The position numbers were made by a program, and so were the translations under genes. A DNA stretch of 64,000 bases from assembly GCA_016201045.1 (NCBI GenBank), contig JACQDM010000007.1, positions 62,001 to 126,000 of the forward strand, given 5' to 3'. The DNA comes from Afipia sp. (lineage in GTDB: Bacteria > Pseudomonadota > Alphaproteobacteria > Rhizobiales > Xanthobacteraceae). Under the pieces are notes generated by a model, which worked only from the letters and a program-made list of their open reading frames with translations, had not been told where the DNA came from and did no database searches. Below are positions 43,735 through 61,681 of this stretch, piece by piece (position 1 is the stretch's first letter; each line of letters starts with the position of its first letter).

Positions 43735-43842
43735 TACGTCGAAGAATATTTTTTGGCAGCCCTTGTCCCGCCTTGCTGCCATTCCATTGCACCCCAACTA
43801 AAGTCGCACCCCGACGCCCGGGGCGAACAATGGAGCAGTAAA

Positions 43843-45090: not shown

Positions 45091-45572
45091 AAACGATCAA
45101 GCAACAGATCGAAGCCATGTCAGTCCGCTGGCCTGGCTTCGAAGTCAAATTCCAAGACGCGCACAACGTCGGATGGGAAGGTATCGTGACGCCCGCAAAA
45201 CGTCCGTACCTGCTCCGTGTTGGATACGACGTACCGAAAAACATTCTTGAAAATCGCACGTTGCACAACTCTCAACCCGGCGTTCAGGTACTTAAGCCTG
45301 TCCTCGAACGGCATGCAGATTACGAGGAAGGCCCGATACCACACGTCTATCGCAACAAGGCGGACGAGAAACTTCCGTACTTGTGCCTGTTCAGCCCTGA
45401 GCTGCGCGAATGGACGCCTGACGATCTTCTTGCCGACACGACCATTTTCTGGGCGGTCGAGTGGCTCTACTTCTATGAAGGCTGGCTGCTGACTCGCAAA
45501 TGGTATGGCGGCGGACGCCATGTGCCTCGTCCCGATGATGGGGGCAAGCAACTTGATCGAGCGGCGGTCTAG
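45087..45572 (+). CDS. E2-like ubiquitin-conjugating protein of type II-short CBASS
   Basis: A 161-aa protein with the sequence pattern of CBASS E2 domains: RWPGFEVKFQDAHNVGWEG, PHVYRN, then the presumed catalytic cysteine C100 in LPYLCLFSPELREW, and WAVEWLYFYEGWLLTRKWYGGG. Unlike Cap2 of full type II systems there is no fused E1 domain and no JAB protease (Cap3) nearby. Such stand-alone E2 systems are called type II-short and are thought to attach the CD-NTase through the cysteine. The gene overlaps the CD-NTase by 4 bp and the patatin gene by at least several codons. Confidence 0.82.
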   Translation: MKTIKQQIEAMSVRWPGFEVKFQDAHNVGWEGIVTPAKRPYLLRVGYDVPKNILENRTLHNSQPGVQVLKPVLERHADYEEGPIPHVYRNKADEKLPYLCLFSPELREWTPDDLLADTTIFWAVEWLYFYEGWLLTRKWYGGGRHVPRPDDGGKQLDRAAV

Positions 45573-46605
45573 CGGAACGCTTCAAGGATTGCGCGACCCG
45601 CTGCCATGGCCTGCGGGAAAGCCCTTTCGCATCCTGTCCATCGACGGCGGCGGCATCCGCGGCATCTTGCCCGCAGCAATTTTGACAAAGCTGGAAGAGA
45701 AATATCTGCCGGGAAAATCGGTCGGCGACTATTTCGATCTCATCACCGGCACCTCGACTGGCGGCATCATTGCGCTGGCGCTTTCGCTCGGGCTGACGGC
45801 AAGGACCATCCTCGACATCTACACGCAACATGGCGCAGAAGTATTTCCGCCGACCGATCCCGGCTTTCTGAAAATTCGGTCTGGCCTGCGGTTCCTCCGC
45901 AACTCGCGCTACTACACATACGACTCCGATAAGTTGCTCCGCCAACTTGAGCGCGTCTTCGGACAGACTGTCATCGGCGCAGCGCAACGACGTTTGTGTA
46001 TTCCGACTTTTGATGGCTTCACCGAGGTCAACGTCTTCAAGACACCGCATCACGCAGACTACAAACGCGACTGGCGAGAGTTGATGATTACGGCAGCGAT
46101 GGCGACCGCAGCCGCTCCGTCATATTTCCCGGTTTACAAGGATCGAGGTCGCTTCTTTGCTGATGGAGGCGTCTGGGCGAACAATCCGGTGATGGTCGGA
46201 CTAGTGGATGCGCTCGCGTGCTACCAGATTGAGCGGCGTCAGGTTCACATTCTGTCGATAGGATCAGGTGATACGGAAATCGAAATCAGCGCGAAACAAG
46301 TTTCGCTTGGCGGCTTCTGGTACTGGCGTGACATCATCTCGTCCGCGATGCATCTGCAAAGTCAGAATGCGCTGGGTCAAGCTGGCCTCTTGATCGGTCG
46401 CGACCAACTCATTCGATTGAACGCGCTACCGATGCCGGCGAACCCGATTGCGATGGATGACTTCGCGCGTTCGAGAGACGAATTACCGCAGATCGCCGCA
46501 CGCCTCGTTGACGAGCAAGGTGACCTTATTCGTGATCGTTTTCTATTTGCGCCTGCTGATCCATACGAAGCGAAGTATGGTCCGCGCGCGGCATTGAGCG
46601 CATAG
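45505..46605 (+). CDS. capV: CBASS patatin-like phospholipase effector
   Basis: Up to 366 aa. The patatin core is complete: oxyanion box LSIDGGGIRGIL, nucleophile GTSTGG in LITGTSTGGIIAL, and the catalytic aspartate in FADGGVWANNP. CapV-type effectors are activated by a cyclic nucleotide and degrade the inner membrane, killing the infected cell. The start is unresolved: ATGs at 45505, 45520 and 45535 or a TTG at 45553 (with GGGGGC) all overlap the end of the E2-like gene. Effector-last gene order differs from the common effector-first order. Confidence 0.88.
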   Translation: MAADAMCLVPMMGASNLIERRSSGTLQGLRDPLPWPAGKPFRILSIDGGGIRGILPAAILTKLEEKYLPGKSVGDYFDLITGTSTGGIIALALSLGLTARTILDIYTQHGAEVFPPTDPGFLKIRSGLRFLRNSRYYTYDSDKLLRQLERVFGQTVIGAAQRRLCIPTFDGFTEVNVFKTPHHADYKRDWRELMITAAMATAAAPSYFPVYKDRGRFFADGGVWANNPVMVGLVDALACYQIERRQVHILSIGSGDTEIEISAKQVSLGGFWYWRDIISSAMHLQSQNALGQAGLLIGRDQLIRLNALPMPANPIAMDDFARSRDELPQIAARLVDEQGDLIRDRFLFAPADPYEAKYGPRAALSA

Positions 46606-46795: not shown

Positions 46796-47374
46796 ATGTA
46801 TACCGACCCGTTGCAGCCTCTAGCGACAACCGCCGACAACGAATTCACCCTCACCATCGACGACGCTCTTTCACTTTACGCCGCCGCCGGTATCCCCCGG
46901 ACACCTCGCAGCATTCAAAGATACTGCGCGAAAGAGCACCTCTCCTCTCGTCGGGTTGAGACCGAATTCGGCGAAAAATATCTCATTACGCGCGCGTCAG
47001 TTGAGAAGCATATAGCATACATCAAAGAAGTCACACCGACGACAAGTCGCGACCTGCCGCGGCAGGTCGCGGCAAGTGTCGCCGCAGAAAATAGCGGCGA
47101 TTTGCTGCGACAGCAGGCAGCGACAACCACCGACGAGCTGCGACTTGTCGCGACAAGTCCGGACCTGTCGCGCTATGTCGCGCGTTTGGAAGGGGATGTT
47201 GATTTCTTGCGCGGACAAATGGAAGTGAAGGACAATCAGATTAAGGAAATGACTGAGCGCGCACGGGAAACGAATGTGCTGATCGCTGGACTTCAAAAAA
47301 TGTTATCGCCATTATTAAGCGCTCCGAAAGACCGCCGCGATGGGGGAGATGAAAACTCTCCGACAACACACTAG
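46796..47374 (+). CDS. HTH/coiled-coil plasmid protein (replication or partition accessory)
   Basis: A 192-aa protein directly before the replication initiator. An N-terminal winged-helix/MerR-like part (DDALSLYAAAGIPRTPRSIQRYC, KYLITRASVEKHIAYI) is followed by a repeat-rich middle (TSRDLPRQVAASVA and TSPDLSRYVARL) and a C-terminal coiled coil (DVDFLRGQMEVKDNQIKEM). Proteins of this layout occur beside repA in plasmids of this group. The repeated peptides coincide with long DNA palindromes inside the gene. A role in replication control or partition is inference from position. Confidence 0.65.
   Translation: MYTDPLQPLATTADNEFTLTIDDALSLYAAAGIPRTPRSIQRYCAKEHLSSRRVETEFGEKYLITRASVEKHIAYIKEVTPTTSRDLPRQVAASVAAENSGDLLRQQAATTTDELRLVATSPDLSRYVARLEGDVDFLRGQMEVKDNQIKEMTERARETNVLIAGLQKMLSPLLSAPKDRRDGGDENSPTTH
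47048..47071. repeat. 24-bp perfect palindrome inside coding sequence
   Basis: CGCGACCTGCCG followed by its exact reverse complement CGGCAGGTCGCG. It lies in the gene at 46796 and belongs to a field of TGTCGC/GCGACA-type motifs. It could be a protein-binding operator or a partition site. Confidence 0.8.
47142..47159. repeat. 18-bp perfect palindrome inside coding sequence
   Basis: GACTTGTCG/CGACAAGTC. It shares the CGACAAGTC core with a site near 47040, and GACAAGTC(G/C)(C/G)GACCTG(C/T)CGC recurs at 47041 and 47153 as a direct repeat. Confidence 0.8.
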
Positions 47375-47430
47375 CCATCCACAGCGCTTGCCAGACTTAC
47401 AAAGTTTCCATGTCATAATTGACGCAACAT

Positions 47431-48921
47431 ATGGAAGCCGCACAAGCAACTCAAAACTCACAAACAATTGCGACCGAGCCGGTCTATCTGGAAAATACTT
47501 TGCTCCGGATTTTTGGTGTTTTGTTTTGTCACGATCCAAAACGAGCACGCACCCGAACTGAAAAGATCGAAATCAATCGCGGTGTCAGCGACAAGAATAT
47601 TACCGTCCGTTTCGATCCCGAATATGCACAGCCTGGACCATTCGCACACAAAGTTGCGATGGCCGTCATCCGCAAACAATCTCGTTTCGGTTCACCAGCG
47701 CAAAAACAGATTTCATTTTCGCAACGCGAGTTAATGCGTTTGACCGGACGCAAAACATGGGGCGGTCATGACAGTGAAGAATTGATCCGCGCGTTACGCC
47801 AAATCCGCTACACCCATGTTCTGGCCAGCTTCAAGAAAGATGAGCGTTTCGTTGAACACGACTTCAGTGTCTTCAATGAGGTGATGATTGAGCGCCGCGC
47901 TGCGATCACTGATCCGATTGTTGCCTGCACTGTTGTGATTTCCGATCCCATCATTCAGTCGCTCAACGACAAACATTTTACCTGTCTCAACCACGCGCTC
48001 TTACAGGAAGTGAGTTCAATTGCCGGTGCGTTCTACATGCGGCTGTTTCATCACTTCGCGTCGCATTACGATGGCAAGCATTTGGACCGAGTGTCGTTCA
48101 AAAAGCGTTATGACGATATTTGCGTTGAATGGTTGGGCGGTCTCAGCGTCCTGAAATACAAATCGGCAATTGAGCGCGACCAGATCGGAACGCATCTCGA
48201 TCAACTGGTCCAAACTGGCTTTTTAAAATCTTACGCCATCACACCTGCGGAAACCCGCGAAGGTTTTGTTCTCACGTTTCGTCCGGGTGCCCGATTCGTG
48301 GCCGACTACAACTCGTTTTATGTCCGCCGCAACCAGGGCGACTTCCAGTTCAACTTTCACGACGAAAGCCGTTCGATAGGGGAGCCGCACCAAGTTGCTT
48401 ATTTGTTTATCGAAAAACGAACGGGCCAAAAGCGAGAGGGCATTCCTTACGTTTCCTCGAAAGAGGTAGAGACCGCCAAGGGTTTGCTGGCTGCCATTCC
48501 GCTGGAACAGATGGATGCTTTTCTAAACTATGCGCTAAGTGAAGCGGAACGGACACGGTTTGATCTCCAAACACTTGGAGGTGTCCGGCTCTATTTGAAT
48601 AGCTACCTTCAGACGCGTGAGCGCCGAGCGACGCAAAAAGCGAGGGCTGCCGCCCAACAGGCCCAGGACCAAGAAGAAGGGCTTCGTGCCGACTACAATC
48701 GCTATCTGCGCACCGCCGCAGCGGAGTTGTTCAACAGTCTCACCTCGCCGGAGCAAACCGCCATTGAAAGCCTCGCGCGAGCCAAAGCGCGACCTCCTCT
48801 TGGCAACACAGGTTATCTCTCGCATACGTTCTTTGAAATGGAACGCACGCGTCTCACGATCGATCGCCATCCCGGCAAGCTTCTTTCCTTTGATCAGTGG
48901 AAGGCCGAAAACGTCCGTTAG
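47431..48921 (+). CDS. repA: Replication initiator protein A (RepA)
   Basis: A 496-aa protein of the alphaproteobacterial plasmid/element initiator family (RPA). Typical blocks are RGVSDKNITVRFDPEYAQPGPFAHKVAMAVIRK, QISFSQRELMRLTGRKTWGG, and VSSIAGAFYMRLFHHFASHYDG. The C-terminal third has a basic linker (TRERRATQKARAAAQQAQDQ). It should bind iterons at an origin to start replication of the element. Four repeats of matching style lie directly after the stop codon. I use the ATG at 47431; the track begins at a TTG. Confidence 0.88.
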   Translation: MEAAQATQNSQTIATEPVYLENTLLRIFGVLFCHDPKRARTRTEKIEINRGVSDKNITVRFDPEYAQPGPFAHKVAMAVIRKQSRFGSPAQKQISFSQRELMRLTGRKTWGGHDSEELIRALRQIRYTHVLASFKKDERFVEHDFSVFNEVMIERRAAITDPIVACTVVISDPIIQSLNDKHFTCLNHALLQEVSSIAGAFYMRLFHHFASHYDGKHLDRVSFKKRYDDICVEWLGGLSVLKYKSAIERDQIGTHLDQLVQTGFLKSYAITPAETREGFVLTFRPGARFVADYNSFYVRRNQGDFQFNFHDESRSIGEPHQVAYLFIEKRTGQKREGIPYVSSKEVETAKGLLAAIPLEQMDAFLNYALSEAERTRFDLQTLGGVRLYLNSYLQTRERRATQKARAAAQQAQDQEEGLRADYNRYLRTAAAELFNSLTSPEQTAIESLARAKARPPLGNTGYLSHTFFEMERTRLTIDRHPGKLLSFDQWKAENVR

Positions 48922-48932
48922 ACACGTAAGGG

Positions 48933-49016
48933 GTGGGGTATTTGACCCAAGCAGTGGGGGGGTTGACCGTAGTGAGCGGGGGGTTTGACCCAAGAGACCG
49001 GGGGGTTTGACCCAAA
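48933..49016 (+). repeat. Four iteron-like direct repeats (putative origin)
   Basis: Four imperfect copies of a G-run plus TTTGACCCAA: GTGGGGTATTTGACCCAAG, GTGGGGGGTTGACCGTAG, GCGGGGGGTTTGACCCAAG and CGGGGGGTTTGACCCAAAG. The TTGAC cores start at 48942, 48963, 48985 and 49007, so spacing is 21, 22 and 22 bp, about two helical turns. This is the layout expected of RepA iterons. The next 100 bp are AT-rich (CATATATTCTTATAGATTCTACACATGTG), fitting an unwinding region. Confidence 0.75.
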
Positions 49017-49232
49017 GATTTTGAAGTTGGAAAGCGATTTAATGAGACAGGGCAACGGCTTTTCGGTTTGCCAACTTTCTCTCATATATTCTTATAGATT
49101 CTACACATGTGTGAATTCTTCTTTTGAATGGAAAAAGTTACGCAACAAAATTGGAAAGTCGTCAAGAAACTTGCCCTTCAAAGACGATTCGAGCTTCGCA
49201 ACTCGGCTCGAAATCAACCCGGTCAAAATTAA

Positions 49233-49316
49233 AATATGGCTCTGTTAAGCCACCAATCAGAATAAGGGTCGCAGAACTAATCTTGTGCGACGTATTTAAT
49301 ATGGCTCTGTTGAGCC
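49233..49316 (+). repeat. Pair of direct repeats with internal hairpin
   Basis: AATATGGCTCTGTTAAGCC (49233) and AATATGGCTCTGTTGAGCC (49298) differ by one base and lie 65 bp apart. The second forms a GGCTC-TGTT-GAGCC hairpin followed by GTTTTCTCTTT. They are in the gene-free gap between the iterons and the toxin-antitoxin pair, where no convincing ORF is seen. Confidence 0.6.
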
Positions 49317-49413
49317 GTTTTCTCTTTGCGTCCTCCTTTCGCTTGAACGAAGCATCGGTTGTCAGAGTTATCACTTGCCCGACATTTGATTGCCTCTATG
49401 CTACAATGGTTGC

Positions 49414-49626
49414 ATGAGCAAATTGCTTGAAAAGGTGATCGCCAAAGTTCGCAAGTTGCCCGACGACGAGCAAGACTTGGTTGCCGGGCGCTTGATGGAG
49501 CACTTCGATGAAGTCTCATCAGACGCCGACCGCGTATCGATAGACGAGGCACGCGAGGCTTACGCGAACGGCGACTTTGCCGTGCTCGCCAAATGGAAAC
49601 ATGACATGGGGATTAGCGATAACTAG
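49414..49626 (+). CDS. Antitoxin of a RelE/ParE-type module
   Basis: A 70-aa protein (MSKLLEKVIAKVRKLPDDEQDLVAGRLMEHFDE...), whose helix with LP-x-E/D-EQ is typical of small addiction-module antitoxins. A -10-like TACAAT ends 6 nt before the ATG, with CCGACA 17 bp upstream, so the mRNA may be leaderless. The reading frame overlaps the toxin by 26 bp. Confidence 0.72.
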   Translation: MSKLLEKVIAKVRKLPDDEQDLVAGRLMEHFDEVSSDADRVSIDEAREAYANGDFAVLAKWKHDMGISDN

Positions 49627-49858
49627 TCCCGCAGGACGTGACCTCCGTCATATTCCGGCCAGCGAGCTAAAACGGATCAATGCCGTTTTTGAGGCCATGA
49701 TTGATGATCCTTACGGCGGCGATACCAGAATGTTACGCGGCACGAATGGCGCGTCCCGACGCCGAGTTGGCCATTGGCGCATCCTGTTCGAACTCGATTT
49801 GCAACGGCATGTGATCGTTATCTTGGGCGTCAAACGCCGCCGCTCCCATACCTACTAA
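49601..49858 (+). CDS. RelE/ParE-family toxin
   Basis: An 85-aa protein from the ATG at 49601 (MTWGLAITSPAGRDLRHIP). The C-terminal pattern VGHWRILFELD...VIVILGVKRRRSHTY is the usual RelE-fold ending with basic and aromatic catalytic residues. RelE toxins cut mRNA on the ribosome; ParE relatives poison gyrase. It is coupled to the antitoxin by overlap. The track start eight codons earlier is in the antitoxin. Confidence 0.78.
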   Translation: MTWGLAITSPAGRDLRHIPASELKRINAVFEAMIDDPYGGDTRMLRGTNGASRRRVGHWRILFELDLQRHVIVILGVKRRRSHTY

Positions 49859-49989
49859 TGCCGCAAAGCGTACAGCTATGCGCCGCTATGTTCATATTGC
49901 CGGGTTCCCAATCTTTCTCTATGATCCGCGATGCCCGCTAGCTGGTTTCTCTTAACCAATGGGCGTCGACGCTCTTCACGGAGTGGTCG

Positions 49990-50184
49990 ATGAACATGTT
50001 GAGAAGGCTGGTATCGAAAAAGGAACTGAAATCGATTTATGGTATTCCCTACTCGCCCGCGCACATTGCGCGCCTTGAGAAGGCTCAAAAATTTCCCATC
50101 CGGGTAAATCTTGGACTTTGCAGGGTGGCTTGGTACGCGGACGAGATCGAAGCCTGGATCGACTCACGTCCTCGCGCTGCGTAA
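49990..50184 (+). CDS. AlpA-like HTH regulator
   Basis: A 64-aa DNA-binding protein, MRS-type fold of the AlpA/excisionase family: LRRLVSKKELKSIYGIPYSPAHIARLEKAQKFP ... CRVAWYADEIEAWIDSR. GGAG lies 9 nt before the ATG. Such proteins act as excisionase or activators in prophages and integrative elements. A perfect terminator-like hairpin follows its stop. Confidence 0.8.
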   Translation: MNMLRRLVSKKELKSIYGIPYSPAHIARLEKAQKFPIRVNLGLCRVAWYADEIEAWIDSRPRAA

Positions 50185-50213
50185 ATCGCAGACACTTTTT
50201 GAAGGGTTTTTTG

Positions 50214-50246
50214 GGCGGCAGGGTTCGAAACCTGCCGCCTATTTTC
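50214..50246 (+). terminator. Stem-loop terminator after the AlpA-like gene
   Basis: GGCGGCAGG and CCTGCCGCC form a 9-bp stem with an 8-nt loop, followed by TATTTTC. It separates the regulator from the ATPase gene. Confidence 0.65.
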
Positions 50247-50278
50247 TTGGAGCTTGGCAACTTTTCCTGTCACATCGC

Positions 50279-50319
50279 CCCGCCATATGGCGGGAATGCA
50301 CTGCGCTATACTGTATAGC
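50279..50319. promoter_or_regulatory. Two adjacent perfect palindromes upstream of the ATPase gene
   Basis: CCCGCCATATGGCGGG (16 bp, 50279-50294) and GCTATAC-T-GTATAGC (15 bp, 50305-50319). They lie in the 260-bp gap before the first transfer-like ATPase and look like operators or part of an origin of transfer. The rest of this gap (50320-50443) shows no gene. Confidence 0.55.
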
Positions 50320-50443
50320 CAAGTGCCAATTCACATTTTCACGTTACATTTCAACTGATTCCGCACACCAGCCGTCGGGCATTACGCCACGACCTTTCTT
50401 GTTTTTGCTTGATCTTTCTCATACCACCGCGCGCCTGCTTTGC

Positions 50444-51811
50444 ATGCGCGCTCAAGGACGTGTCCTTGATGGTATTTTGAAAGATACAAGCCAAAGCCCA
50501 CGTGAGTGGGAAAAACAAGAAAGGTCGTGGCGCTCAGCGCCACCGACGGACTGGTGTGCGGACTGGTACAATCAACCATGGACCGTTCTTTCGTTTACAC
50601 CTCGCCGCGCGCCACCGAACGAAGTCCCAGCACAGATAAAGTCACGGCTCGCGCGGCGGGTTATGTACGAAAGACACCTATACATCATCGGAAAATCCGG
50701 CAGCGGCAAATCCACATTTCTACAAAACACGATTTTGCAGAACCCTGGCGGCTTTTGCCTGATCGACCCGCATGGCGATTTAGCCGAAGCTGTCGCCGAC
50801 CGCACCGACTGCATCTACTTTGATCCGTCAGAGTTGCAGCTCGGCTTTAACGTCTTTGCGGATGTGCCGGAGCCTCATCGGCCATTGGTCGCGGCCCAAA
50901 TTGTTGCGTCTTTTAAAGCCATTTGGGGCGACAGTTGGGGGCCGCGCATGGAATGGATCTTGGTCAATGCGATCCGACTGTTGCTCGATAACGCGCAAAC
51001 TTTTTTGGGTCTGCCTCGACTTTTGACCGACGACGCCTATCGCGCCCGACTATTGCGCAACTGCACCGATCCAATCGTGCAAACATTTTGGGAAAAAGAG
51101 TTTGCTGCTTACGACGACCGATTCCGCAAAGAGGCTATCGCCCCAATCCAGAATAAAGTTGGTCAATTGTTGGCCAATCCGATTTTAAGAAACATCATTG
51201 GCCAGCACCGCAGTACGCTTCGACCGGGACGGATTATGAATGGCGGCCAACGCATCGTCGTCAATCTGGCAAAAGGCAAACTGGGCGATGCCCCATCGCA
51301 TCTGTTGGGCGCTTTATTGGTGTCTGCGTTCGCGCAAGCGGCAGAACAACGCGCAACAATCCCGGAAAAAGACCGAGTGCCATTCACCCTCTATGTCGAT
51401 GAGTTTCAGAACTTCGCCACCGAAAGCTTTGCCACCATCCTCTCAGAAGCCCGTAAGTACAAACTGTCGCTGGTCATCGCCCACCAATTCCTCGGTCAGT
51501 TGCCGGTGCAGTTACGTCAGGCGGTTTTTGGCAATGTCGGGACCATGATGGCGTTTCGGGTGGGAGCGGAAGATGCGCCATTGATTGCTTTGGAGTTGGG
51601 TTTAAAGAACGCCGAGATTTTGTCCGACCTGGATAACTTTCGGGCGTGGCTGCGGGTGGGTGGACCCTTCGGTCCGCAGATGATGGACACCGAACCCGCC
51701 GGTCCGCCACTCGGTCGATTGCCAGCGGTGAGGCGTAGGACCCGCGCCCGCTTTTGCCGCCCACCTCATCTGGTCAAACGGGAGATTGAAAGTTTTCTAA
51801 ATGCATCTTGA
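50444..51811 (+). CDS. VirD4/TraG-like DNA-translocating ATPase, first copy
   Basis: About 455 aa. Walker A IIGKSGSGKSTFLQN near residue 84, LIDPHGDLAEAV shortly after, and Walker B LYVDEFQNFATESF near 316, then the HerA/VirD4-type ARKYKLSLVIAHQFLGQL. There is no membrane helix before the ATPase core, unlike classical coupling proteins. The start is uncertain: ATG at 50444 or a TTG 27 bp later with AAGGA upstream; the track start is too early. The C-terminal GGPFGPQMMDTEPAG is glycine/proline-rich. It probably moves DNA or protein in transfer or replication of the element. Confidence 0.8.
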   Translation: MRAQGRVLDGILKDTSQSPREWEKQERSWRSAPPTDWCADWYNQPWTVLSFTPRRAPPNEVPAQIKSRLARRVMYERHLYIIGKSGSGKSTFLQNTILQNPGGFCLIDPHGDLAEAVADRTDCIYFDPSELQLGFNVFADVPEPHRPLVAAQIVASFKAIWGDSWGPRMEWILVNAIRLLLDNAQTFLGLPRLLTDDAYRARLLRNCTDPIVQTFWEKEFAAYDDRFRKEAIAPIQNKVGQLLANPILRNIIGQHRSTLRPGRIMNGGQRIVVNLAKGKLGDAPSHLLGALLVSAFAQAAEQRATIPEKDRVPFTLYVDEFQNFATESFATILSEARKYKLSLVIAHQFLGQLPVQLRQAVFGNVGTMMAFRVGAEDAPLIALELGLKNAEILSDLDNFRAWLRVGGPFGPQMMDTEPAGPPLGRLPAVRRRTRARFCRPPHLVKREIESFLNAS

Positions 51812-51865
51812 CGTTGCGTCCGTGGTTTTCGCAGAATACGGCGGGCAGAGAAATTGGGGGGACAC

Positions 51866-52243
51866 ATGTATCTCGTACTACGTCGCGATCAGCGAAAGAG
51901 TTTAACCGGAAAAATCATTTTTCAATTGGATGTCCAGGCCGAAATCACGCCTGAAGAAGTTGAAAACATCCAGCGCTACCGGTTGGGAGACACTCTTCTC
52001 TATTCCAAAGGCGAACTGACCGAGCGTGGATCGGGAATGTTAGGTCTGGCATCGCGCATGGCGTTCCACGCCATGAACATTTCAGTCAACATTAGCGAAC
52101 TTGTGAACGGCAAGCGGATCGAATGCAAAGACATTTTGGAAATGCTGGCTGTTGAAGAGCAAATCAGAGAAGCCGCAATAAGGTTCAAACAAGTGCTCCA
52201 CGCCGCAACATATTTTGGCGGGGAAGAAGCATTTGAAATCTAG
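51866..52243 (+). CDS. Small protein linking the two ATPase genes
   Basis: A 125-aa protein from the ATG at 51866 (MYLVLRRDQRKSLTGKIIFQLDVQAEI...), preceded by GGGGGG. It contains LGDTLLYSKGELTERGSG and a C-terminal helix (ILEMLAVEEQIREAAIRFKQVL). Its stop overlaps the start of the second ATPase, so the two are coupled. I know no family; a small partner of the ATPases is likely. Confidence 0.65.
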   Translation: MYLVLRRDQRKSLTGKIIFQLDVQAEITPEEVENIQRYRLGDTLLYSKGELTERGSGMLGLASRMAFHAMNISVNISELVNGKRIECKDILEMLAVEEQIREAAIRFKQVLHAATYFGGEEAFEI

Positions 52244-54338
52244 CAACATCTTTCACTGGGCATTCTCTAACATCCTGCAATGGTCAAACCTGCGGGCCTA
52301 TTTTGTCGGCTCATTGGCAGGCCGTGACCGGGAAGAGGTCCGCGATCTCTATGCGCGGGTCCGCGATGCTTACAACGCGTCGCCCTATTGCGCGGAAGAT
52401 GCGGCGTTTGAGTTCACTGAAAGTTTGCTCGAAGAGGTATTTCAAAAAGCAGGCGTGGTTGCCTCTCACAAGGTTCAGATTGCGTTTGGCAATGTTGTCT
52501 GGGAATTGTTGCACGGAGAGCCGGTGATTTTCGGGTTACCCGATGAGCCGGACTTTGGGCATATGTCACGCGGCTCGCTGCAACAAATGCGTGCGTTGTT
52601 GGTGGTCAAAGAGCGGATTCTCAATAACCCTGCGTTTTATGTCGATATCTGGCGTCAGAAGATCATCTATTTGCTCGCGGGACTTGTCGGATCATTTCCG
52701 TCCTTTGTATTCGACCCGGCGATCGAGGACGATGCGCCGGGCTTCAATGTCATGCTCATCGACGTGTGCTCCAATCCTGCGGAAGCCATCGAGCGGACCA
52801 TGGCAACGATGTATGACGACGACATTGTGCAGGCGGGATTGTTCGCGAGCGTCCGAAAATGCTTTGAGGACAATCTGGCCCGCGCCAGCGGCATCAACCC
52901 AAATGACCCAAGCCGTAGCCGAACGGTCAGAACACCGAACACCAGCAAAGACAGAAATCCCCGAGATCTTGTCGCTGACTTCCTGTCAGGAACGCCATTC
53001 CCCGATCTGTTTCTGGCCAGCGTCCCCTTTCCTCTTCCTGAACAGGCGCGTTTTGCTCATCAATGGATATTGGCACCGCAAGGAGCGGGAAAGACACAGG
53101 CGATCCAGTTTCAGTTTCTTCGTGATCTTCCCAAAGTTGCAAACAACGAAGCCAGCATCATCGTCATGGATAGTCAGGGCGACCTGATCCGGAATATCGC
53201 CGGGTTGAAAGTTTTTGCCGACGGTGAACCTCTTGACGGCAAACTGGTGCTGATCGAGCCCGACCCGGAATATCCACTGGCGCTCAATATCTTCGATATG
53301 GGGAAAGATCGGCTAGATCAGTATTCGGTGCGGGACAAAGAGCGCCTGACCAACAGCACGCTGGAGATGCTGACCTATGTGATCGGCAGTCTGTCCGAGA
53401 CTGAGATGACGCCAAAGCAGCAAACTCTGTTTCGCTATGTGCTGCGGGCCTGCATGCAGATTCCCGACGCCACGATCCATACTTTTGCCGAGTTGTTGTC
53501 CGGGACCGACAAATACCAGTCACACATCGAACGACTCGAAGGCCCGGCCAAACTGTTTTTCGAGACCCAGTTCAACGACGTCCAGTTTAAGCAAACCAAG
53601 CAGGAAGTCGCATGGCGGCTAATGTACCTTTTGGAAAATCCTACATTTGAGCGGATGTTTTCCAATCCGCGCTCGAAACTAGACCTGTATACCGAGTTGC
53701 AGTCTTCCAAAGTGATCCTCATAAATACTGACAAGGACTTGCTGAAAGACAAGCGCACCGAAATGTTTGGGCGCTTCTTCATCGCCATGCTTTTGCAGAG
53801 CGCACAGGAACGCGCGTCTTTGCAGCGTGAACATCGCATGCCGGTGTTTTGTTACATCGACGAGTGCCACGATTACATTGCAAACGATACCAATATCACC
53901 ACCCTGCTGGATCAGGCCCGAAAGATGAATATTGGTCTCATTCTGGCCAATCAAAGATGCGCTCAGGTCTCCCCCGCCGTGCTCGATGCCTTGTGCAACG
54001 TGTCTATCAAGCAGGCCCGCGCGCTAAGCGATAGCGATGCCCACACGCTTGCGCGAAATATGCAGACGACGCCAGAATTTTTATCGTCACAGCCAGAGCA
54101 GACTTTTGCCACCAGCATTCGCGGCGTCACAAGAAACGCGCTGTCGCTTCAGGTGCCATTTCTGCAACTTGAAAATCTGGAACGTATGTCAATCGAGGAT
54201 CAGGAAGATATCAGATCGCGGATGCGGCTCAACTATTGTGTTCCCGCTCAGCTTCCAAACATTCAACCGCCGCAACCGCCGGAGCCAATCGCCCCGGCTA
54301 ACGAAGTTGATACGCGACCCTCCACGGATTGGGGCTAA
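52233..54338 (+). CDS. Large VirD4/HerA-like ATPase, second copy
   Basis: About 701 aa. An N-terminal domain of 270 residues with no ATPase motifs is followed by Walker A ILAPQGAGKTQAIQF near 281, IVMDSQGDLIRNI, and Walker B FCYIDECHDYIANDTN near 539, then ARKMNIGLILANQRCAQVSP. The C-terminus is proline-rich (QPPQPPEPIAPANE). I use a TTG at 52233 with GGGGA upstream; it overlaps the small gene by 11 bp. Sequence differs strongly from the first ATPase, so the two are not recent duplicates. A transfer or packaging role is inferred. Confidence 0.78.
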   Translation: MKSSNIFHWAFSNILQWSNLRAYFVGSLAGRDREEVRDLYARVRDAYNASPYCAEDAAFEFTESLLEEVFQKAGVVASHKVQIAFGNVVWELLHGEPVIFGLPDEPDFGHMSRGSLQQMRALLVVKERILNNPAFYVDIWRQKIIYLLAGLVGSFPSFVFDPAIEDDAPGFNVMLIDVCSNPAEAIERTMATMYDDDIVQAGLFASVRKCFEDNLARASGINPNDPSRSRTVRTPNTSKDRNPRDLVADFLSGTPFPDLFLASVPFPLPEQARFAHQWILAPQGAGKTQAIQFQFLRDLPKVANNEASIIVMDSQGDLIRNIAGLKVFADGEPLDGKLVLIEPDPEYPLALNIFDMGKDRLDQYSVRDKERLTNSTLEMLTYVIGSLSETEMTPKQQTLFRYVLRACMQIPDATIHTFAELLSGTDKYQSHIERLEGPAKLFFETQFNDVQFKQTKQEVAWRLMYLLENPTFERMFSNPRSKLDLYTELQSSKVILINTDKDLLKDKRTEMFGRFFIAMLLQSAQERASLQREHRMPVFCYIDECHDYIANDTNITTLLDQARKMNIGLILANQRCAQVSPAVLDALCNVSIKQARALSDSDAHTLARNMQTTPEFLSSQPEQTFATSIRGVTRNALSLQVPFLQLENLERMSIEDQEDIRSRMRLNYCVPAQLPNIQPPQPPEPIAPANEVDTRPSTDWG

Positions 54339-54450
54339 CTTTGCGTGTTATTATTTTGAAGTGAACATTTTCGAACATATCGGCCGTAATCGCGCATGGT
54401 TGAACATCACGAACGTTTTCAAATTCTGATGGTCGCGTATTCAACAATGT

Positions 54451-55410
54451 ATGACACCTACTCCCCAAACAGGTTTTTCGCGGCGTTCCCGTCTGCATCG
54501 CAAGGCAACTGGAAAACCTCTGGCGCTCAGCCCGCGCGATCTTGAAGTATTCAAACTTCTAAACCGATATCGCTATCTTCGTTCAACCTTCATTCACTTG
54601 TTTGTAGGCGGATACAAAGTCGCTTTGATCAAGCGGCTCGGGATTCTGTATCACGATGGATATCTAGACCGGCCAAAACAGCAATGGCAGGTGATCAATG
54701 CTCGCTACATGCCTGCCGTCTACGAATTGGGCCGAAAGGGCGAGCAAGCGCTTCGCGCAGTTGGCGTTGCGGTCACCAACATGCCGAGCCAGCAGTTCTC
54801 ACATGCGCTAATGATTTGCGATATTCTAGGTTCAATCGAACTCGGCATCAAAGCCGATCCGCGGTTACGGCTGATCTCGTGGGGCGAGATTGTCGCTAAA
54901 CTGCCAGCCGCCACGAAAGCACAACGCAATCCGTTGGAGCTTCCCTGCAATATCTCGTTCACGTTTCCGCGCAGCAAGACAACCCATCGATTGTCAAAGC
55001 CGCTGATCCCTGACGCCGTGTTCGGCATCGAGTACAAGCCGTCAAAATCCTTTCGGTTCTTTGCACTGGAAGCGGATCGCAACAACGAGCCCGTCTTCCG
55101 CAATAACCTGTCGCAGACATCTTACTTGAGGAAAATTCTGCAATACCGGGAAATTGCCAAGGGTGCCTACAAATCCAATTGGGGGCTGCCGAACCTACTA
55201 GTGCTGAATGTCACCACCAGCCAACGGCACATGACCAACATCATCAAGCTAGTGAATGATCTGACCGGCAGCAAAGGCGCAAGCTACTTGCTTTTTAAGA
55301 CTATGCCGTCCTTGTCATCGCTTGAGAGGGCTCCTTTGCCGGACGCCTTGATGCTGACCGATCCTTGGCAACGTGCCGGGCATAGTTCGTTTGAGATTCA
55401 TAAACTTTGA
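54451..55410 (+). CDS. Replication-relaxation (Replic_Relax) family protein
   Basis: A 319-aa protein. The N-terminal winged-helix (LSPRDLEVFKLLNRYRYLRSTFIHLFVGG, YLDRP) matches the Replic_Relax family found on plasmids and mobilisable elements. The second half has PDAVFGIEYKPSKSFRFFALEADRNNEPV followed by a K-rich helix (LRKILQYREIAKG), a layout resembling PD-(D/E)XK nucleases. It may nick or process DNA for transfer. The start at 54451 has no obvious ribosome site. It lies 113 bp after the second ATPase. Confidence 0.75.
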   Translation: MTPTPQTGFSRRSRLHRKATGKPLALSPRDLEVFKLLNRYRYLRSTFIHLFVGGYKVALIKRLGILYHDGYLDRPKQQWQVINARYMPAVYELGRKGEQALRAVGVAVTNMPSQQFSHALMICDILGSIELGIKADPRLRLISWGEIVAKLPAATKAQRNPLELPCNISFTFPRSKTTHRLSKPLIPDAVFGIEYKPSKSFRFFALEADRNNEPVFRNNLSQTSYLRKILQYREIAKGAYKSNWGLPNLLVLNVTTSQRHMTNIIKLVNDLTGSKGASYLLFKTMPSLSSLERAPLPDALMLTDPWQRAGHSSFEIHKL

Positions 55411-55427
55411 AAGGAGGTGATGTAGTC

Positions 55428-55610
55428 GTGGATATCGATTTAGACCGCGTCAAAGATTTGATCTCAAAGCGCGATGAGATTGACGTAGAGCTTGTGAAGC
55501 TATTTAGCGGAAAGGGCGCGGCGAGAAAACCGCAGCAATGCTCGCATTGCAATCAAGAAGGCCACACCGCCCGCAACTGTCCAGGCAAGACCAGCGAGAG
55601 TCAGACATAG
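55428..55610 (+). CDS. CCHC zinc-knuckle microprotein
   Basis: A 60-aa protein from a GTG at 55428. The motif C38-S-H-C41-N-Q-E-G-H46-T-A-R-N-C51 is a textbook retroviral-type zinc knuckle (C-x2-C-x4-H-x4-C), preceded by an acidic helix (DIDLDRVKDLISKRDEIDVELVK). The leader carries AAGGAGGTGAT, the full anti-Shine-Dalgarno complement, ten bases before the GTG. A strong bidirectional terminator follows. Zinc knuckles bind single-stranded RNA or DNA; in bacteria they are rare. The role in this element is unknown. Confidence 0.8.
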   Translation: MDIDLDRVKDLISKRDEIDVELVKLFSGKGAARKPQQCSHCNQEGHTARNCPGKTSESQT

Positions 55611-55613
55611 AAA

Positions 55614-55645
55614 AAGGGAGGCGTTCGCGCCTCCCTTGCTTTTTT
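55614..55645. terminator. Bidirectional rho-independent terminator
   Basis: AAGGGAGGCG-TTCG-CGCCTCCCTT, a 10-bp perfect stem with a TTCG tetraloop. TTTTTT follows on the plus strand and TTTTT on the minus strand, so it serves both the zinc-knuckle gene and the minus-strand gene at 55644. Confidence 0.88.
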
Positions 55646-55871
55646 ACTCGTCGTCTTTTGGTGGGACCAGAATGAACTTGCCGTCCCAATTAAACGGAAC
55701 CATGTTGAGCGTCACCACCAGGCCGTCGCCTTCGTTGAAAGGCCACGCCGCGCCGATAGTCATCATGAAATCGCTGTCCGGCCTTTGCTTGGCTCTTGCG
55801 TTGTAAACAGGCCTTGCACCTTTCGGCTTCGCATCAGTCTCTTCTGTCGGCCTCGGTTTCGTCTTGGTCAT
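55644..55871 (-). CDS. Small hypothetical protein of the element
   Basis: A 75-aa protein from the ATG at 55871 (MTKTKPRPTEETDAKPKGARP), with AGGAG upstream. The C-terminal half has MMTIGAAWPFNEGDGLVVTLNMVPFNWDGKFIL, a beta-rich block seen in small proteins of rhizobial plasmids and islands. Function unknown. The stop sits inside the terminator. The track start is 16 codons too long. Confidence 0.65.
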   Translation of the reverse strand: MTKTKPRPTEETDAKPKGARPVYNARAKQRPDSDFMMTIGAAWPFNEGDGLVVTLNMVPFNWDGKFILVPPKDDE

Positions 55872-55963
55872 TATCCACTCCTGTTCGTGGTTGCGTCCAC
55901 CATCAATGATACAATCCAAATTGGACGTACCTTTCGGCTATCCCCACATCGCAGGAGACGACA

Positions 55964-56728
55964 ATGCCCTTCGTGGATTTTGCGGAGTTGAAAACCCGTG
56001 TTTCGATTGAAGATGCCGTCAGCCTTCTCGGCCTCACCCTCAAGCCTCACGGCTTGCAAAAGCGAGGCGGTTGCCCAACGTGCAAGGCCGGTGGCGAACG
56101 CGCACTCGTCGTCACCCCGTCAAAGGGATTATTCTATTGTTTTGCTCAGAAGACCGGCGGCGATCAAATTGCCCTCGTCGCTCATATCAAGGCTTGTACC
56201 TTGAGCGAGGCTGCCAGTTTTCTTGGCGGCGTAGTCACAAGCAAGATTACGATTCCTTCGACAGTTCCCCCAGCCCCGGCCAACAAAAAGCCAGGGTTCG
56301 ACCCGGAGGCGTATGCGGCGAGACTTGATCCGGCGCATGCGTCTCTGGCTTCAATCGGCATCTCTACTGAGACGTTGCGGATGTTTCACTCGGGTTTTGC
56401 GTCTTCGGGCAGTAACCGTGGACGCCTGGCTCTTCCCCTTCATGATCGTGACGGACATCTTCTTGGTTACTGCGGCCGAAGCGTGAGGAACGAAAGTCCA
56501 TTGCTGGTCTTCCCAAACGGGATCAATCCGCATGAGTTTATTTTCAATGCTCATCGGGTGATCGCGGGTGAACTTTATTTGGTTCGCGATCCGATCGATG
56601 TTTTGAAAGCTTTCGAGTCGGGCGTTGAAAACGTTGTTTCATTTCTGACAGAAATCACGCCGCAACAAATCGAGATGCTGGCAGCACTCATGGACAGCAA
56701 AAAATGTGAGACGGTCGCACTGTTCTAA
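55964..56728 (+). CDS. Primase-like protein with degenerate zinc and TOPRIM sites
   Basis: A 254-aa protein of DnaG-type layout: an N-terminal zinc region (GGCPTCKAGG, FYCFAQKTGGDQIALV), then RLALPLHDRDGHLLGYCGR and a TOPRIM-like GELYLVRDPIDVLKAFESG. Zinc ligands appear as C37-x2-C40 and C59 with Q62 in place of the usual fourth cysteine. The acidic EG...D of TOPRIM reads RDPID, so the glutamate is lost. It could still bind DNA but might be inactive as a primase. CAGGAG precedes the ATG. A terminator follows. Confidence 0.7.
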   Translation: MPFVDFAELKTRVSIEDAVSLLGLTLKPHGLQKRGGCPTCKAGGERALVVTPSKGLFYCFAQKTGGDQIALVAHIKACTLSEAASFLGGVVTSKITIPSTVPPAPANKKPGFDPEAYAARLDPAHASLASIGISTETLRMFHSGFASSGSNRGRLALPLHDRDGHLLGYCGRSVRNESPLLVFPNGINPHEFIFNAHRVIAGELYLVRDPIDVLKAFESGVENVVSFLTEITPQQIEMLAALMDSKKCETVALF

Positions 56729-56749
56729 AGCCCCTACGGGGGCTTTTTC
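56727..56749 (+). terminator. Rho-independent terminator after the primase-like gene
   Basis: AAAGCCCC-TACG-GGGGCTTTTT, partly overlapping the TAA stop codon, with TTTTTCTTT behind the stem. Confidence 0.82.
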
Positions 56750-56801
56750 TTTGTGCGGTACAATAGGGAGCGGACTGTTCCACACATCATGGAGGTTCGC
56801 C

Positions 56802-57662
56802 GTGAACACATCCAAGCTCTACGACGTCGTCACCGGCAACATCATTGCTGAACTGCAGGCGGGTGCCATCCCCTGGCTGAAGCCATGGAAAGGCGGAGGC
56901 ACCGGAATGCTACCCGCAAACGCCATCACCAAGCGGAGCTACTCCGGCATTAACATTTGTCTGCTTTGGTTTGAGGCCGACAAGCATTCTTACGCCAAGC
57001 ATCTGTGGCTCACTTATCAGCAAGCCAAGGCGCGCGGGGCGACGATCCGCAAAGGCGAGAAAGGCACGCATATTGTCTTCACCAAAAAACTTTCGGAGAA
57101 GGACACGAAGACGGACGAGCAGAAGAAGGTGCAAATGCTCAAGACGTTCTGCGTGTTCAACATCGCGCAGATCAACGGTCTGACGCTACCAGCCGAACCA
57201 GAGCCAATTGCGGAATGCGTCCGGCATGAAGCAGCCGAACACTTTATCGAAGCAACCAAAGCCGACATTCGCGGTGGCGGCGACCAGGCGTGTTACGTCC
57301 CTGCTTTGGATCGCGTGTTGATGCCGTTCCAGGGCTTCTTCATCAATCAGGAAGCCTTCTATTCAGTGACACTGCATGAACTCGGCCACTGGACCGGTGC
57401 GAAGCATCGCCTCAATCGCGATCTCTCTGGTGGATTTATCACGCGAAAGTACGCCTTCGAGGAACTGGTGGCCGAACTTACTTCTGCGTTTCTGTGTGCC
57501 CATCTTGGGCTACAGGCCGAGCTGCGGCACGCAGGCTATATTGAACACTATCTTGCGGTGCTGAAGGATGACGACCGCGCATTCTTTAAGGCCGCAGCCA
57601 AAGCTCAACAAGCGGCTGACTACCTGCGAGAATTCAGCGAAAAAGCGCGCGAAGACCAATGA
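56802..57662 (+). CDS. ardC: ArdC-type antirestriction / zincin-like protein
   Basis: A 286-aa protein of the ArdC family. An N-terminal ssDNA-binding part (VVTGNIIAELQAGAIPWLKPW ... NAITKRSYSGINICLLW) is followed by a metallopeptidase-like part with HELGHWTGAKHR near residue 190 and the later glutamate in FEELVAELTSAFL. Such proteins protect incoming plasmid DNA from restriction. The GTG at 56802 has GGAGG upstream; the track start is too early. It is the last recognised gene of the mobile region. Confidence 0.88.
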   Translation: MNTSKLYDVVTGNIIAELQAGAIPWLKPWKGGGTGMLPANAITKRSYSGINICLLWFEADKHSYAKHLWLTYQQAKARGATIRKGEKGTHIVFTKKLSEKDTKTDEQKKVQMLKTFCVFNIAQINGLTLPAEPEPIAECVRHEAAEHFIEATKADIRGGGDQACYVPALDRVLMPFQGFFINQEAFYSVTLHELGHWTGAKHRLNRDLSGGFITRKYAFEELVAELTSAFLCAHLGLQAELRHAGYIEHYLAVLKDDDRAFFKAAAKAQQAADYLREFSEKAREDQ

Positions 57663-57778: not shown

Positions 57779-58678
57779 TCAAACGTGAAGCACTGCCTCC
57801 TGTTGGCGAAGCGTTTCGTCCTCGACTTGAATCGTGACGTGATCAATACCAAATTTTTCTTTCAGACTGCGGCGAGCCTCCTGAAGTAATTCGCGTCCCG
57901 CGCGTATGTCGCTGACGACGAGATGGCAACTCATCGCATCGAAGCCAGATGTGATGGTCCAAACGTGCAGGTCATGCACCGCAACCACGCCAGGAATGCT
58001 CGTCAACTCTTTTTCTAGAAGTTCAACATCGATATTGGGTGGGGTGCCTTCCATCAGGATGTGGGTTACTTGTTTAAGCAAACTCCAAGTCCGAGGCACA
58101 ATGAACAGACCGATTCCGGCTCCGATGATCGGATCTGCGTGCGTCCATCCTTTCCACATCATCAGGAGTGCAGCGACAATCACGCCAATCGAACCCAGCA
58201 TGTCGCTCAGAACTTCGAAATAAGCGCCCTTGACGTTCAGACTTTCCGACGATCCGCCCGCCAACAGCCTCATACTAATCAGGTTGACGACCAACCCGAT
58301 GGACGCAACGACTAGCATTGGCGCGCTTCGGACTTCCGGGGGTGATTGGAAGCGTTGGTAAGCTTCGTAGAGGATATAGATCGTCAGTAAGAGCAAAACC
58401 ACGGCATTGGTGAGAGCCGACAGCACCTCCATCCTCAGATAACCGTAAGTCCGTTGCGGCGTTGCCTCGCGCGACGCAAAGCGTATCGCAAGCAGCGCCA
58501 GCGCCAATCCGCCGACGTCAGTCAACATGTGTGCTGCGTCTGCCAATAGCGCGAGGCTGCCGGTGACCAGACCACCGATGACCTCGGCAACCATATAGGT
58601 AGCCGTCAGCGCAAGCGCCCAGCCGAGCCTGCCCGCATGCTGCGCAGCCGCCGTTCCTGCCGAACCTTCACCGTGCAT
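57779..58678 (-). CDS. Cation diffusion facilitator (CzcD-like) transporter
   Basis: A 299-aa CDF exporter with six membrane helices. The zinc-site signatures LLADAAHMLTDVGGL in TM2 and YFEVLSDMLGSIGV in TM5 are present, and the cytoplasmic C-terminal domain (VAVHDLHVWTITSG) is complete. It exports Zn2+, Cd2+ or Co2+ from the cytoplasm by proton exchange. Its start overlaps the end of the upstream 190-aa gene by 11 bp. This is the left gene of the metal cluster. Confidence 0.92.
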   Translation of the reverse strand: MHGEGSAGTAAAQHAGRLGWALALTATYMVAEVIGGLVTGSLALLADAAHMLTDVGGLALALLAIRFASREATPQRTYGYLRMEVLSALTNAVVLLLLTIYILYEAYQRFQSPPEVRSAPMLVVASIGLVVNLISMRLLAGGSSESLNVKGAYFEVLSDMLGSIGVIVAALLMMWKGWTHADPIIGAGIGLFIVPRTWSLLKQVTHILMEGTPPNIDVELLEKELTSIPGVVAVHDLHVWTITSGFDAMSCHLVVSDIRAGRELLQEARRSLKEKFGIDHVTIQVEDETLRQQEAVLHV

Positions 58679-59240
58679 TCTTCAGGTCTCCGGAGTTTAG
58701 GTCTGAACGCGCAACGGGATTTCCAGCGGTAGAATTATCCGGCCCAGATAAGAAGCTGCGCCCGTTCCATTTCAAGACGCGCGCCGAAACCCCATTCTCA
58801 ATCCTGAGTTTAACAACGCCACGATCATTGGTCATCTTCACGTCGCGAGCGTGCGCGCTGAACACGAGCCGGTGGCGGCCGCGAGCCTCCGCGTAGACTT
58901 CGTGCAGGCAGCCATCTTCCCGGCATATGGCCGCACGGTTAGCGCATGCGAAGTCTTCAAAATGCAGCGAAACGAACTTCTGCCCATCGGCCTCAATTGA
59001 GACTGCGAAGTAATGCGCCGCCGATGCTTTGTTGCCGCAATCCCTCTCATGCTTGGAAATCTCGCGGCGGATATCCTTCGGCAAGGTTTCGACATGTTCG
59101 GAAGCCAAAGGATGTTCTGCTGCAAAACCGCCGCGCGCAGCGCCAGGATGCTGCATGTCGAATAGTCCCGCGAAGAGAACGATTAATCCCACTTTCACAG
59201 CCGAATATAAGTTCAGAATGTCCTGCGATTTTTGTCTCAT
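58668..59240 (-). CDS. Membrane-anchored hypothetical protein in metal cluster
   Basis: A 190-aa protein with one N-terminal hydrophobic segment (SAVKVGLIVLFAGLFDM) and then HPGAARGGFAAEHPLASEHVETLPKDIRREI. Two cysteines (ACANRAAICREDGCLHEV) may form a disulphide; the rest looks like a beta-sandwich. I recognise no family. It is coupled to the CDF gene by overlap and follows the ferritin-like gene by 4 bp. Confidence 0.6.
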   Translation of the reverse strand: MRQKSQDILNLYSAVKVGLIVLFAGLFDMQHPGAARGGFAAEHPLASEHVETLPKDIRREISKHERDCGNKASAAHYFAVSIEADGQKFVSLHFEDFACANRAAICREDGCLHEVYAEARGRHRLVFSAHARDVKMTNDRGVVKLRIENGVSARVLKWNGRSFLSGPDNSTAGNPVARSDLNSGDLKNAR

Positions 59241-59244
59241 CTCG

Positions 59245-59559
59245 TCAGTCCACTTTCTTTTCAGCCTTCTCCCCCAACTTGACGATGTCGCCCTTGGTGA
59301 ACAGGATTCCTTGAAGCTCTGTCCGCCAATCCTTTTTCTTGCGCAGAAGAAATTCGAGATTCATGCCGAAATGCTTGAACTCTTCTTTCTGAGCGTTGGC
59401 CATGATTGCCTTGGCATTCTTGTCCTTCTCGACGGACATCCGCTGCTCATACCAGCTGATCGCTTCCGCCTCCTCGATAAGTGACGTGATCATGCGCGCA
59501 AAGGTTCGGGTTTCCTGAGAGAGCTCTTCCGGCGGTTCGTGGTATTGATCAAAGCCCAT
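59245..59559 (-). CDS. Encapsulated-ferritin-like (EncFtn family) protein
   Basis: A 104-aa ferroxidase-type protein of two helices. The motif IEEAEAISWYEQRM followed by KEEFKHFGMNLEFLLRKKKDW fits the EncFtn family; E30, E32, W36, Y37, E60 and H63 align with the iron-site residues of the Rhodospirillum protein when offset by two. EncFtn dimers oxidise Fe(II) inside encapsulin shells. No encapsulin gene is next to it, and the C-terminus (GEKAEKKVD) lacks the usual cargo tag, so it may work free or in another context. Confidence 0.78.
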   Translation of the reverse strand: MGFDQYHEPPEELSQETRTFARMITSLIEEAEAISWYEQRMSVEKDKNAKAIMANAQKEEFKHFGMNLEFLLRKKKDWRTELQGILFTKGDIVKLGEKAEKKVD

Positions 59560-59781
59560 TTTTTCGTTCTCCTGATTTTGACCCAGCGACCAGATTGATG
59601 TCCGTGTGAACCCAGTTGTCTTGCAGCGTCGGCGCCAGGCTATCTGCCCCGAAGATAGTTATGCGATCCACCTGATGGTCCATGCCAATAAAATTTCACC
59701 TCCGTCATCCTGCCGCACGATTTTTTAGAACGTTTAGTGCAAATGCTTGCCTCAAGCTCTCTGACGCTTGGTTGCAGAGCA

Positions 59782-61095: not shown

Positions 61096-61681
61096 GCCCG
61101 TTCCCTTCCCGCTTAGCTTCCTTAGCCCGCCAGCGCCGCGCATCGAGCCGACCGATCAAAGGCAGGTATTGCAGTTCCAGGATCAGAATGACCAAGACGG
61201 TCACCAGTCCTGCAATGAGAAGTTCGCCAATCCCCGCGAGCATGCCAACCGCCGACGTTGCCCAAATGGCCGCTGCCGTGGTCAAGCCGCGGACGTTGCC
61301 ACCGTCCTTGAGGATCATCCCTCCGCCGAGAAAACCCACACCGGTGACGACGCCCGCCATTATCTTCTCCGCGGTCGCCGGAAAGTTCTCGACACCGACG
61401 GCCGTGAACGCGGCCGCTCCCAGGCTGACGAGCATGAAGGTACGGTCGCCGGCCTCAGAACCGCGAAACTCGCGTTCCCATCCGATAGGGAAAGCCAGCG
61501 CGACGGCAACGCCGATCCGGATAAGCAACGCGAGATCGAACCTGGTAGTAGCACCGGCGTCACCTGCCGCTGCGAGTGCGCTGCCTGTTGTCAGTCCGAA
61601 CGCGAGAGCGATGATCGCGGGTCGGGCCACTGCATGACGCGCGCCCTCTGTGATGGACAGTCGGCTCAATGCTTGAAACAT
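61085..61681 (-). CDS. mgtC: MgtC/SapB family protein
   Basis: A 198-aa inner-membrane protein. It has PIGWEREFRGSEAGDRTFMLVSLGAAAFT and GVVTGVGFLGGGMILKDGGNVRGLTTAAAIW, the MgtC core. MgtC-type proteins support growth at low Mg2+ and control of ATP synthase. This copy lacks the large C-terminal domain of the Salmonella protein. It is coupled to the exchanger gene downstream. Confidence 0.9.
   Translation of the reverse strand: MFQALSRLSITEGARHAVARPAIIALAFGLTTGSALAAAGDAGATTRFDLALLIRIGVAVALAFPIGWEREFRGSEAGDRTFMLVSLGAAAFTAVGVENFPATAEKIMAGVVTGVGFLGGGMILKDGGNVRGLTTAAAIWATSAVGMLAGIGELLIAGLVTVLVILILELQYLPLIGRLDARRWRAKEAKREGNGHEF

Follow-up and report, generated by a model that had tools for sequence, protein, structure and literature searches.

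Which kind of DNA element is represented by a compact block of replication- and transfer-type genes that lies between ordinary chromosomal genes? This question is raised by positions 46796–57662 of the 64,000-nucleotide stretch of an Afipia sp. genome analyzed here (the window, C8:62001–126000 of a host genome comprising 10 contigs and 3.61 Mb). An earlier note on this DNA had described the block as an integrated, plasmid-like element, mobilizable or fusing, with its own replicon but no visible integrase or relaxase. We conclude, with a probability of roughly 70%, that the block is the replication and mobilization core of an integrative mobilizable element (IME) of about 50.4 kb that carries its own replicon, hereafter called element A. 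Of the earlier description, the integrated, plasmid-like character, the replicon and the probable mobilizability in the absence of pore genes are retained, but both an integrase and a relaxase-type protein do exist. Genes were called from Pfam, NCBIfam and PADLOC scans; positions beyond 64000 are given in window-style numbering (C8 position minus 62000), G-numbers denote other genomes compared, and L-numbers individual loci.

Boundaries of element A at tRNA-Glu

Element A occupies positions 42238–92603, with 42238–64000 inside the window and the remainder continuing to C8:154603; the extent of 46796–57662 proposed earlier therefore covers only a part of it. At its left end (42238–42256), the sequence reads TGGCGC-CCCTAGCGGAATC, which corresponds to the 3′ end of tRNA-Glu(TTC), TGGCGCTCCCTAGCGGAATC, with one base deleted, and represents a degenerate attachment (att) site. 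The right end, outside the window, is a 44-bp exact copy of the tRNA-Glu 3′ end (92560–92603). Just inside this copy, 27 kb past the window edge, a tyrosine integrase is encoded on the minus strand (91190–92449); its arm-binding, central and catalytic domains are all present, as are the catalytic residues by inspection, and it appears intact. When searched in its own genome, the left att sequence returned a single close copy, and its relation to tRNA-Glu was recognized because the comparison with relatives exposed the target site. The intact tRNA-Glu(TTC) of the host is found at 106991–107065. From the exact copy at 92560, the degenerate copy at 42238 and the integrase between them, it follows that the island consists of two elements in tandem, A and B. 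The second one, element B (92603–107065; C8:154603–169065), is about 14.5 kb long, separates element A from the intact tRNA-Glu, and encodes a tyrosine integrase (92724–94034), an AAA protein (94648–96012) and a 1092-residue protein without a Pfam match.

The sister genome G206, a separate assembly, carries element A alone, without element B, at an intact tRNA-Glu. Its identity to the host amounts to 74–78% in the left chromosomal flank and jumps at exactly 42238, where both genomes read TGGCGCCCCTAGCGGAATCC, to about 90% from there on, and to 88–96% for the element overall. The shared sequence beginning at this position runs beyond 57662 and takes in the defense operon upstream of the block. 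On the other side, the G206 integrase (97% identical as a protein) abuts the intact tRNA-Glu, beyond which the right flank known from the host chromosome appears at 77% identity.

In relatives that lack the block, the left-flank genes lie near tRNA-Glu(TTC) and are followed by the genes that are located at 107–131 kb in the host. The distance between the tRNA and the left-flank genes is 0.24–1.5 kb in G155, G212 and G203, which share the same arrangement, and 0.24–1.3 kb in G208 and G124, where the tRNA has the opposite orientation. This inversion of tRNA-Glu relative to its flanking genes was seen at loci L085 (G208) and L090 (G124). Most close relatives lack the element at this locus; a close integrase was found among 28 other genomes of the genus only in G206, and ATPase 2, one of the core proteins discussed below, is missing from all eleven further members of the genus in the family sample. 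The empty sites that the earlier note had proposed to look for, together with the junctions in G206, favor a real insertion, and the boundary repeats that it had likewise suggested searching for turned out to be the two tRNA-Glu 3′-end copies. At the level of sequence, these data demonstrate an integrated element bounded by tRNA-derived repeats that possesses its own integrase and replicon. They also fit the reading of element A as an IME: it is a discrete unit whose target is defined, flanked by att sites and empty in relatives, it encodes an integrase, and it holds no complete mating-pore (type IV secretion system, T4SS) gene set, its cargo open reading frames being efflux genes. The GC content of the block is about 50–54%, versus about 60% in the left part of the window.

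Replicon and putative mobilization genes of the core

Domain scans bear out the gene content read from the block earlier: RepA, AlpA, two transfer-type ATPases, a Replic_Relax protein, a primase-like gene and ArdC were all recovered. RepA is encoded on the plus strand at 47419–48921 (PF10134 (RPA), E = 1e-6), immediately followed by four iterons with a spacing of 22 bp (48925–49015, plus strand; consensus approximately GGGGGGTTTGACCCAAG), which substantiates the iteron-like repeats mentioned in the note. The iterons are kept in G206, and in G214, whose RepA is 62% identical, four 22-bp repeats with another consensus stand in the same place. Repeats that change along with the Rep protein are what would be expected of a working RepA–iteron pair, and the arrangement is that of an iteron plasmid replicon. 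No relative of RepA was found in a plasmid collection at a tblastn threshold of E = 1e-5. Downstream, on the same strand, follow a toxin–antitoxin pair (49390–49858), in which an antitoxin-sized reading frame (49390–49626) precedes a ParE-like toxin (49577–49858) whose match is slightly below the Pfam cut-off, and an AlpA-like regulator (49993–50184; PF05930, 5e-7). The previously suggested toxin–antitoxin pair gains from counterparts with 46–58% identity in other elements.

The protein that had been passed over as a relaxase is the Replic_Relax protein itself (54451–55410, plus strand), which matches PF13814 with an E-value of 7e-11 and 43.1 bits against a cut-off of 25.3. Proteins of this family are recognized as MOBC relaxases by CONJscan and were found accompanied by VirD4 in a survey of streptococcal IMEs (PMC5357655). 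According to a 2025 review, MOBC relaxases are related to restriction endonucleases of the PD-(D/E)XK type, and the prototype, TraX, has a winged helix (PMC12857230). Such a layout is also predicted here: the AF2 model (pLDDT 86.7) displays an N-terminal winged helix, with MarR-like matches, and a restriction-endonuclease-like second domain, for which the best match in the PDB is the endonuclease MunI (E = 5e-4), although at low TM-scores. Sequence searches of the PDB with the relaxase profile returned MarR-type winged helices only. In an alignment of fourteen homologues, Glu207, Asp209, Lys228 and Tyr232 are invariant and Pro187-Asp188 nearly so, giving the pattern P187-D188 ... E207-x-D209 ... 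K228 ... Y232. The sequence match and the predicted fold support, without proving, a relaxase function, and conjugative mobilization through a MOBC-type relaxase is the likely outcome.

Upstream of Replic_Relax, and on the same strand, lie two RecA-like ATPases with Walker motifs, as found in coupling proteins of the VirD4/TrwB type. ATPase 1 (TraG-D_C/VirD4-like; 50663–51811) has the Walker A motif GKSGSGKS; its start is placed near 50663, and the listed start at 50111 is too early, because single-base insertions and deletions relative to G206 break the upstream frame. ATPase 2 (52215–54338; 707 residues) is VirD4/HerA-like and resembles TrwB, CedD and HerA. Between the two is orf129 (51866–52243), which encodes a small conserved protein not assigned to any Pfam family. 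Both ATPases show weak similarity to HerA and mads_8, and a PDB sequence search with the profile of ATPase 2 gave a single weak match to HerA.

Between the genes for AlpA and ATPase 1, an unstranded region of about 200 nucleotides (50355–50568) can form a hairpin with nested inverted repeats and perfect inner arms of 22 bp. It folds into a single long branched structure with a DNA folding z-score of −14.4, the strongest in a sliding scan of the left part of the element. The region is not coding, since its single-base insertions and deletions relative to G206 are confined to the loop and the 22-bp arms are identical. Counterparts that precede the gene for ATPase 1 occur in at least nine elements (G206, G032 (two), G056, G063, L139, L142, L149 and L191). 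We also considered a structural RNA, which is less likely than a DNA structure because most copies have only 0–4 wobble pairs out of about 80 on either strand, the pairing being of the Watson–Crick type. An alignment of six sequences contains 15 pairs with changes on both sides; in the same alignment, several inner pairs break between two subtypes, which may reflect misalignment. No Rfam family matched the hairpin or the rest of the core. We take the hairpin to be a candidate origin of transfer (oriT) or single-strand initiation site.

The core begins with a conserved gene whose product resembles DNA-binding proteins and is predicted to contain a coiled-coil stretch (HTHcc; 46796–47374, plus strand). 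Within this gene, palindromic CGAC..GTCGCG repeats phased by 10 bp (47040–47182) could bind its own product. On the far side of Replic_Relax are a small open reading frame on the minus strand (55644–55919) that recurs in related elements, a DnaG-like protein with a CHC2 zinc finger, representing a partial primase (55964–56728, plus strand), and an ArdC-like anti-restriction protein (56802–57662, plus strand; PF08401 and PF18818).

A proposed transfer route and competing explanations

If element A is an IME, its genes would fit the following cycle. The integrase would excise the element as a circle, which RepA acting at the iterons would maintain or amplify with the help of the toxin–antitoxin pair. 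The Replic_Relax protein would then nick a site in cis, most likely the hairpin at 50355–50568, and the two ATPases together with orf129 would bring the strand to the mating pore of a helper conjugative element. In the recipient, the primase-like protein and ArdC may aid establishment before the integrase re-inserts the element at tRNA-Glu.

Several observations weigh against this cycle. The left att site is degenerate. No transmembrane helix is predicted in either ATPase (maximum 19-residue hydropathy of 1.2 and 1.5, versus 2.4 for a membrane control), so that the N-terminal transmembrane domain of canonical VirD4/TrwB coupling proteins is missing from both, whereas MobB, the coupling protein of MOBC plasmids, needs its transmembrane segment (PMC7431656). 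Neither VirB4 (PF03135) nor VirB10 was found in the host genome, and VirB10/TrbI (PF03743) was absent from five element-bearing genomes. Among 200 family genomes, VirB4 occurred in 4 of the 23 that contain ATPase 2 and in 68 of the 177 others (Fisher p = 0.06; the genomes were drawn twice, with the same handles and apparently as the same set). Since VirB4 is not commoner in carriers, nothing points to a helper that resides in their genomes. The missing resident T4SS could be accounted for by a helper present only transiently, but the ATPases lacking transmembrane helices could not.

Some of these features are what could be expected if the element is integrated but its ATPase–orf129–ATPase–nuclease module serves replication, partition or defense of the element, which would spread by transduction, by transformation or with the help of a phage. 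A resident T4SS is missing from the host and carriers tend to have VirB4 less often, the ATPases have no predicted transmembrane helices and are weakly similar to HerA and mads_8, and the Replic_Relax protein has the predicted fold of a restriction-endonuclease-like nuclease. We nevertheless regard this explanation as unlikely. The module forms the constant backbone of the related elements while the defense cargo varies between them, PF13814 is the family that CONJscan classes as MOBC and that is paired with VirD4 in streptococcal IMEs (PMC5357655), the winged-helix layout matches that of TraX, and a conserved hairpin in cis precedes the module.

A decayed plasmid remnant, captured in the chromosome and no longer mobile, would account for the degenerate left att site and the only moderate difference in GC content, but we consider it quite improbable. 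The core reading frames are intact and 80–99% conserved in G206, and the integrase retains its complete set of domains and catalytic residues. In addition, identity to G206 is higher within the element than in its flanks, and the core is found at different tRNAs in different lineages. A scaffold join between chromosomal and plasmid contigs, which the earlier note had raised and which the 10 contigs and possibly metagenomic origin of the assembly might suggest, is very improbable, as the independent assembly of G206 reproduces both chromosome–element junctions, the ends coincide with tRNA att copies, and junctions of the same kind occur in other species.

Related elements, known systems and cargo

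Elements with the same gene order, for which the earlier note had suggested a search, support the reading of element A as an IME. In G056, G063 and partly G032, the order is HTHcc, replication gene, antitoxin–toxin, ATPase 1, orf129, ATPase 2, Replic_Relax, small minus-strand reading frame and primase-like gene. The replication gene is exchangeable, being RepA in the host element and a different helix-turn-helix protein in G056, G063 and the second copy of G032. The core of G056 adjoins tRNA-Phe and an integrase with 65% identity; a duplicate att site was sought within about 30–65 kb of it and not found. In G063, the core is part of a 28.7-kb unit between 39-bp tRNA-Gly repeats. A region of G032 (C1:212100–299900; L133/L042/L132/L041/L134) contains tandem repeats of the tRNA-Gly 5′ half at 219852, 224714, 253531 and 281759, with two related cores.

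A profile scan of a species-representative genome collection yielded 196 contig stretches with relatives of ATPase 2. In the best 80 of these 196, the gene was linked to orf129 (68/80), Replic_Relax (50/80) and ATPase 1 (38/80). In the plasmid collection, ATPase 2 had only 11 matches, none of which covers 80% of the protein. Divergent copies of the module are present on circular plasmids typed as non-mobilizable by MOB-suite. One of these, the 35-kb plasmid pRS11DPr5 (L217), encodes ATPase 2, orf129, Replic_Relax, a CHC2 protein and multiubiquitin/ThiF genes; its ATPase 2 spans the record start and does not appear as a listed gene.

Among open-licence papers, no account of such a family of elements came to light; what is novel is the gene combination and the conserved module, the kind of element being already known. 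IMEs of the Salmonella genomic island 1 (SGI1) type resemble element A in being islands in the chromosome that encode their own integrase, carry cargo and lack a complete pore, and they have a rep/oriV replicon, which in SGI1 is active after excision (PMC7433901, PMC7826253). They differ in their target, trmE instead of a tRNA, and in the types of relaxase and ATPase, and no SGI1 genes were identified in element A. CloDF13 and other MOBC mobilizable plasmids likewise combine a restriction-endonuclease-type relaxase (MobC) with a coupling-type ATPase of their own (MobB) and no pore (PMC7431656, PMC12857230), whereas element A has two ATPases without a predicted membrane anchor, as well as orf129, an integrase and RepA. 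Streptococcal IMEs of class 8 are integrated and encode VirD4 as coupling protein alongside a Replic_Relax (PF13814/MobC) relaxase (PMC5357655), but they use a serine integrase and have no reported maintenance protein, whereas element A combines a tyrosine integrase with a tRNA target and an iteron replicon. The plasmid pRS11DPr5 of Methylomagnum ishizawai and a plasmid of Sulfitobacter mediterraneus share ATPase 2 and Replic_Relax with element A, the former also orf129, rep genes and the CHC2 protein; these plasmids are free and circular, typed as non-mobilizable, and their module is divergent.

A more far-reaching interpretation, which we regard as doubtful, is that the ATPase 1–orf129–ATPase 2–Replic_Relax module and the hairpin of about 200 nucleotides form a machine for DNA processing or transfer that works with soluble ATPases and is new to the literature, common to tRNA islands and "non-mobilizable" plasmids in many proteobacterial species and independent of a resident classical T4SS. 

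Many genomic islands and plasmids are labeled non-mobilizable because their mobility genes escape recognition. As relatives share the core of element A, it probably marks a family of mobile elements that is widespread but has drawn little attention, and a large set of supposedly immobile elements may in fact move.

Located at tRNA genes, the recurring core of replicon, Replic_Relax protein, two coupling-type ATPases and conserved hairpin has phage defense and metal resistance as its cargo. In element A, the defense cargo is a complete type II-short operon of a cyclic oligonucleotide-based antiphage signaling system (CBASS), directly upstream of the block and on the plus strand. It comprises a CD-NTase (SMODS/oligonucleotide cyclase; 43753–45090), an E2-like protein (45087–45572; PADLOC E2, 3e-49) and a patatin-like phospholipase effector (45505–46605). 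Elsewhere, the defense genes beside the core vary and include restriction-modification-like genes and, as read from the sequence, a nucleotidyltransferase-like gene. Downstream of the block, domain scans revealed the start of the metal-resistance cargo on the minus strand (57779–63961), with cation efflux, EncFtn-like, MgtC and P-type ATPase genes, and CusA/B/C-type efflux, CusF and MerR genes follow beyond the window. This cargo is partly gone in G206, where the common sequence breaks after 57854 and similarity resumes in a sigma-factor and efflux region. At the break (L040, C134), the cation-efflux gene is reduced to its last 76 bp or so and followed by transposase-like sequence, with about 13 kb of metal cargo missing.

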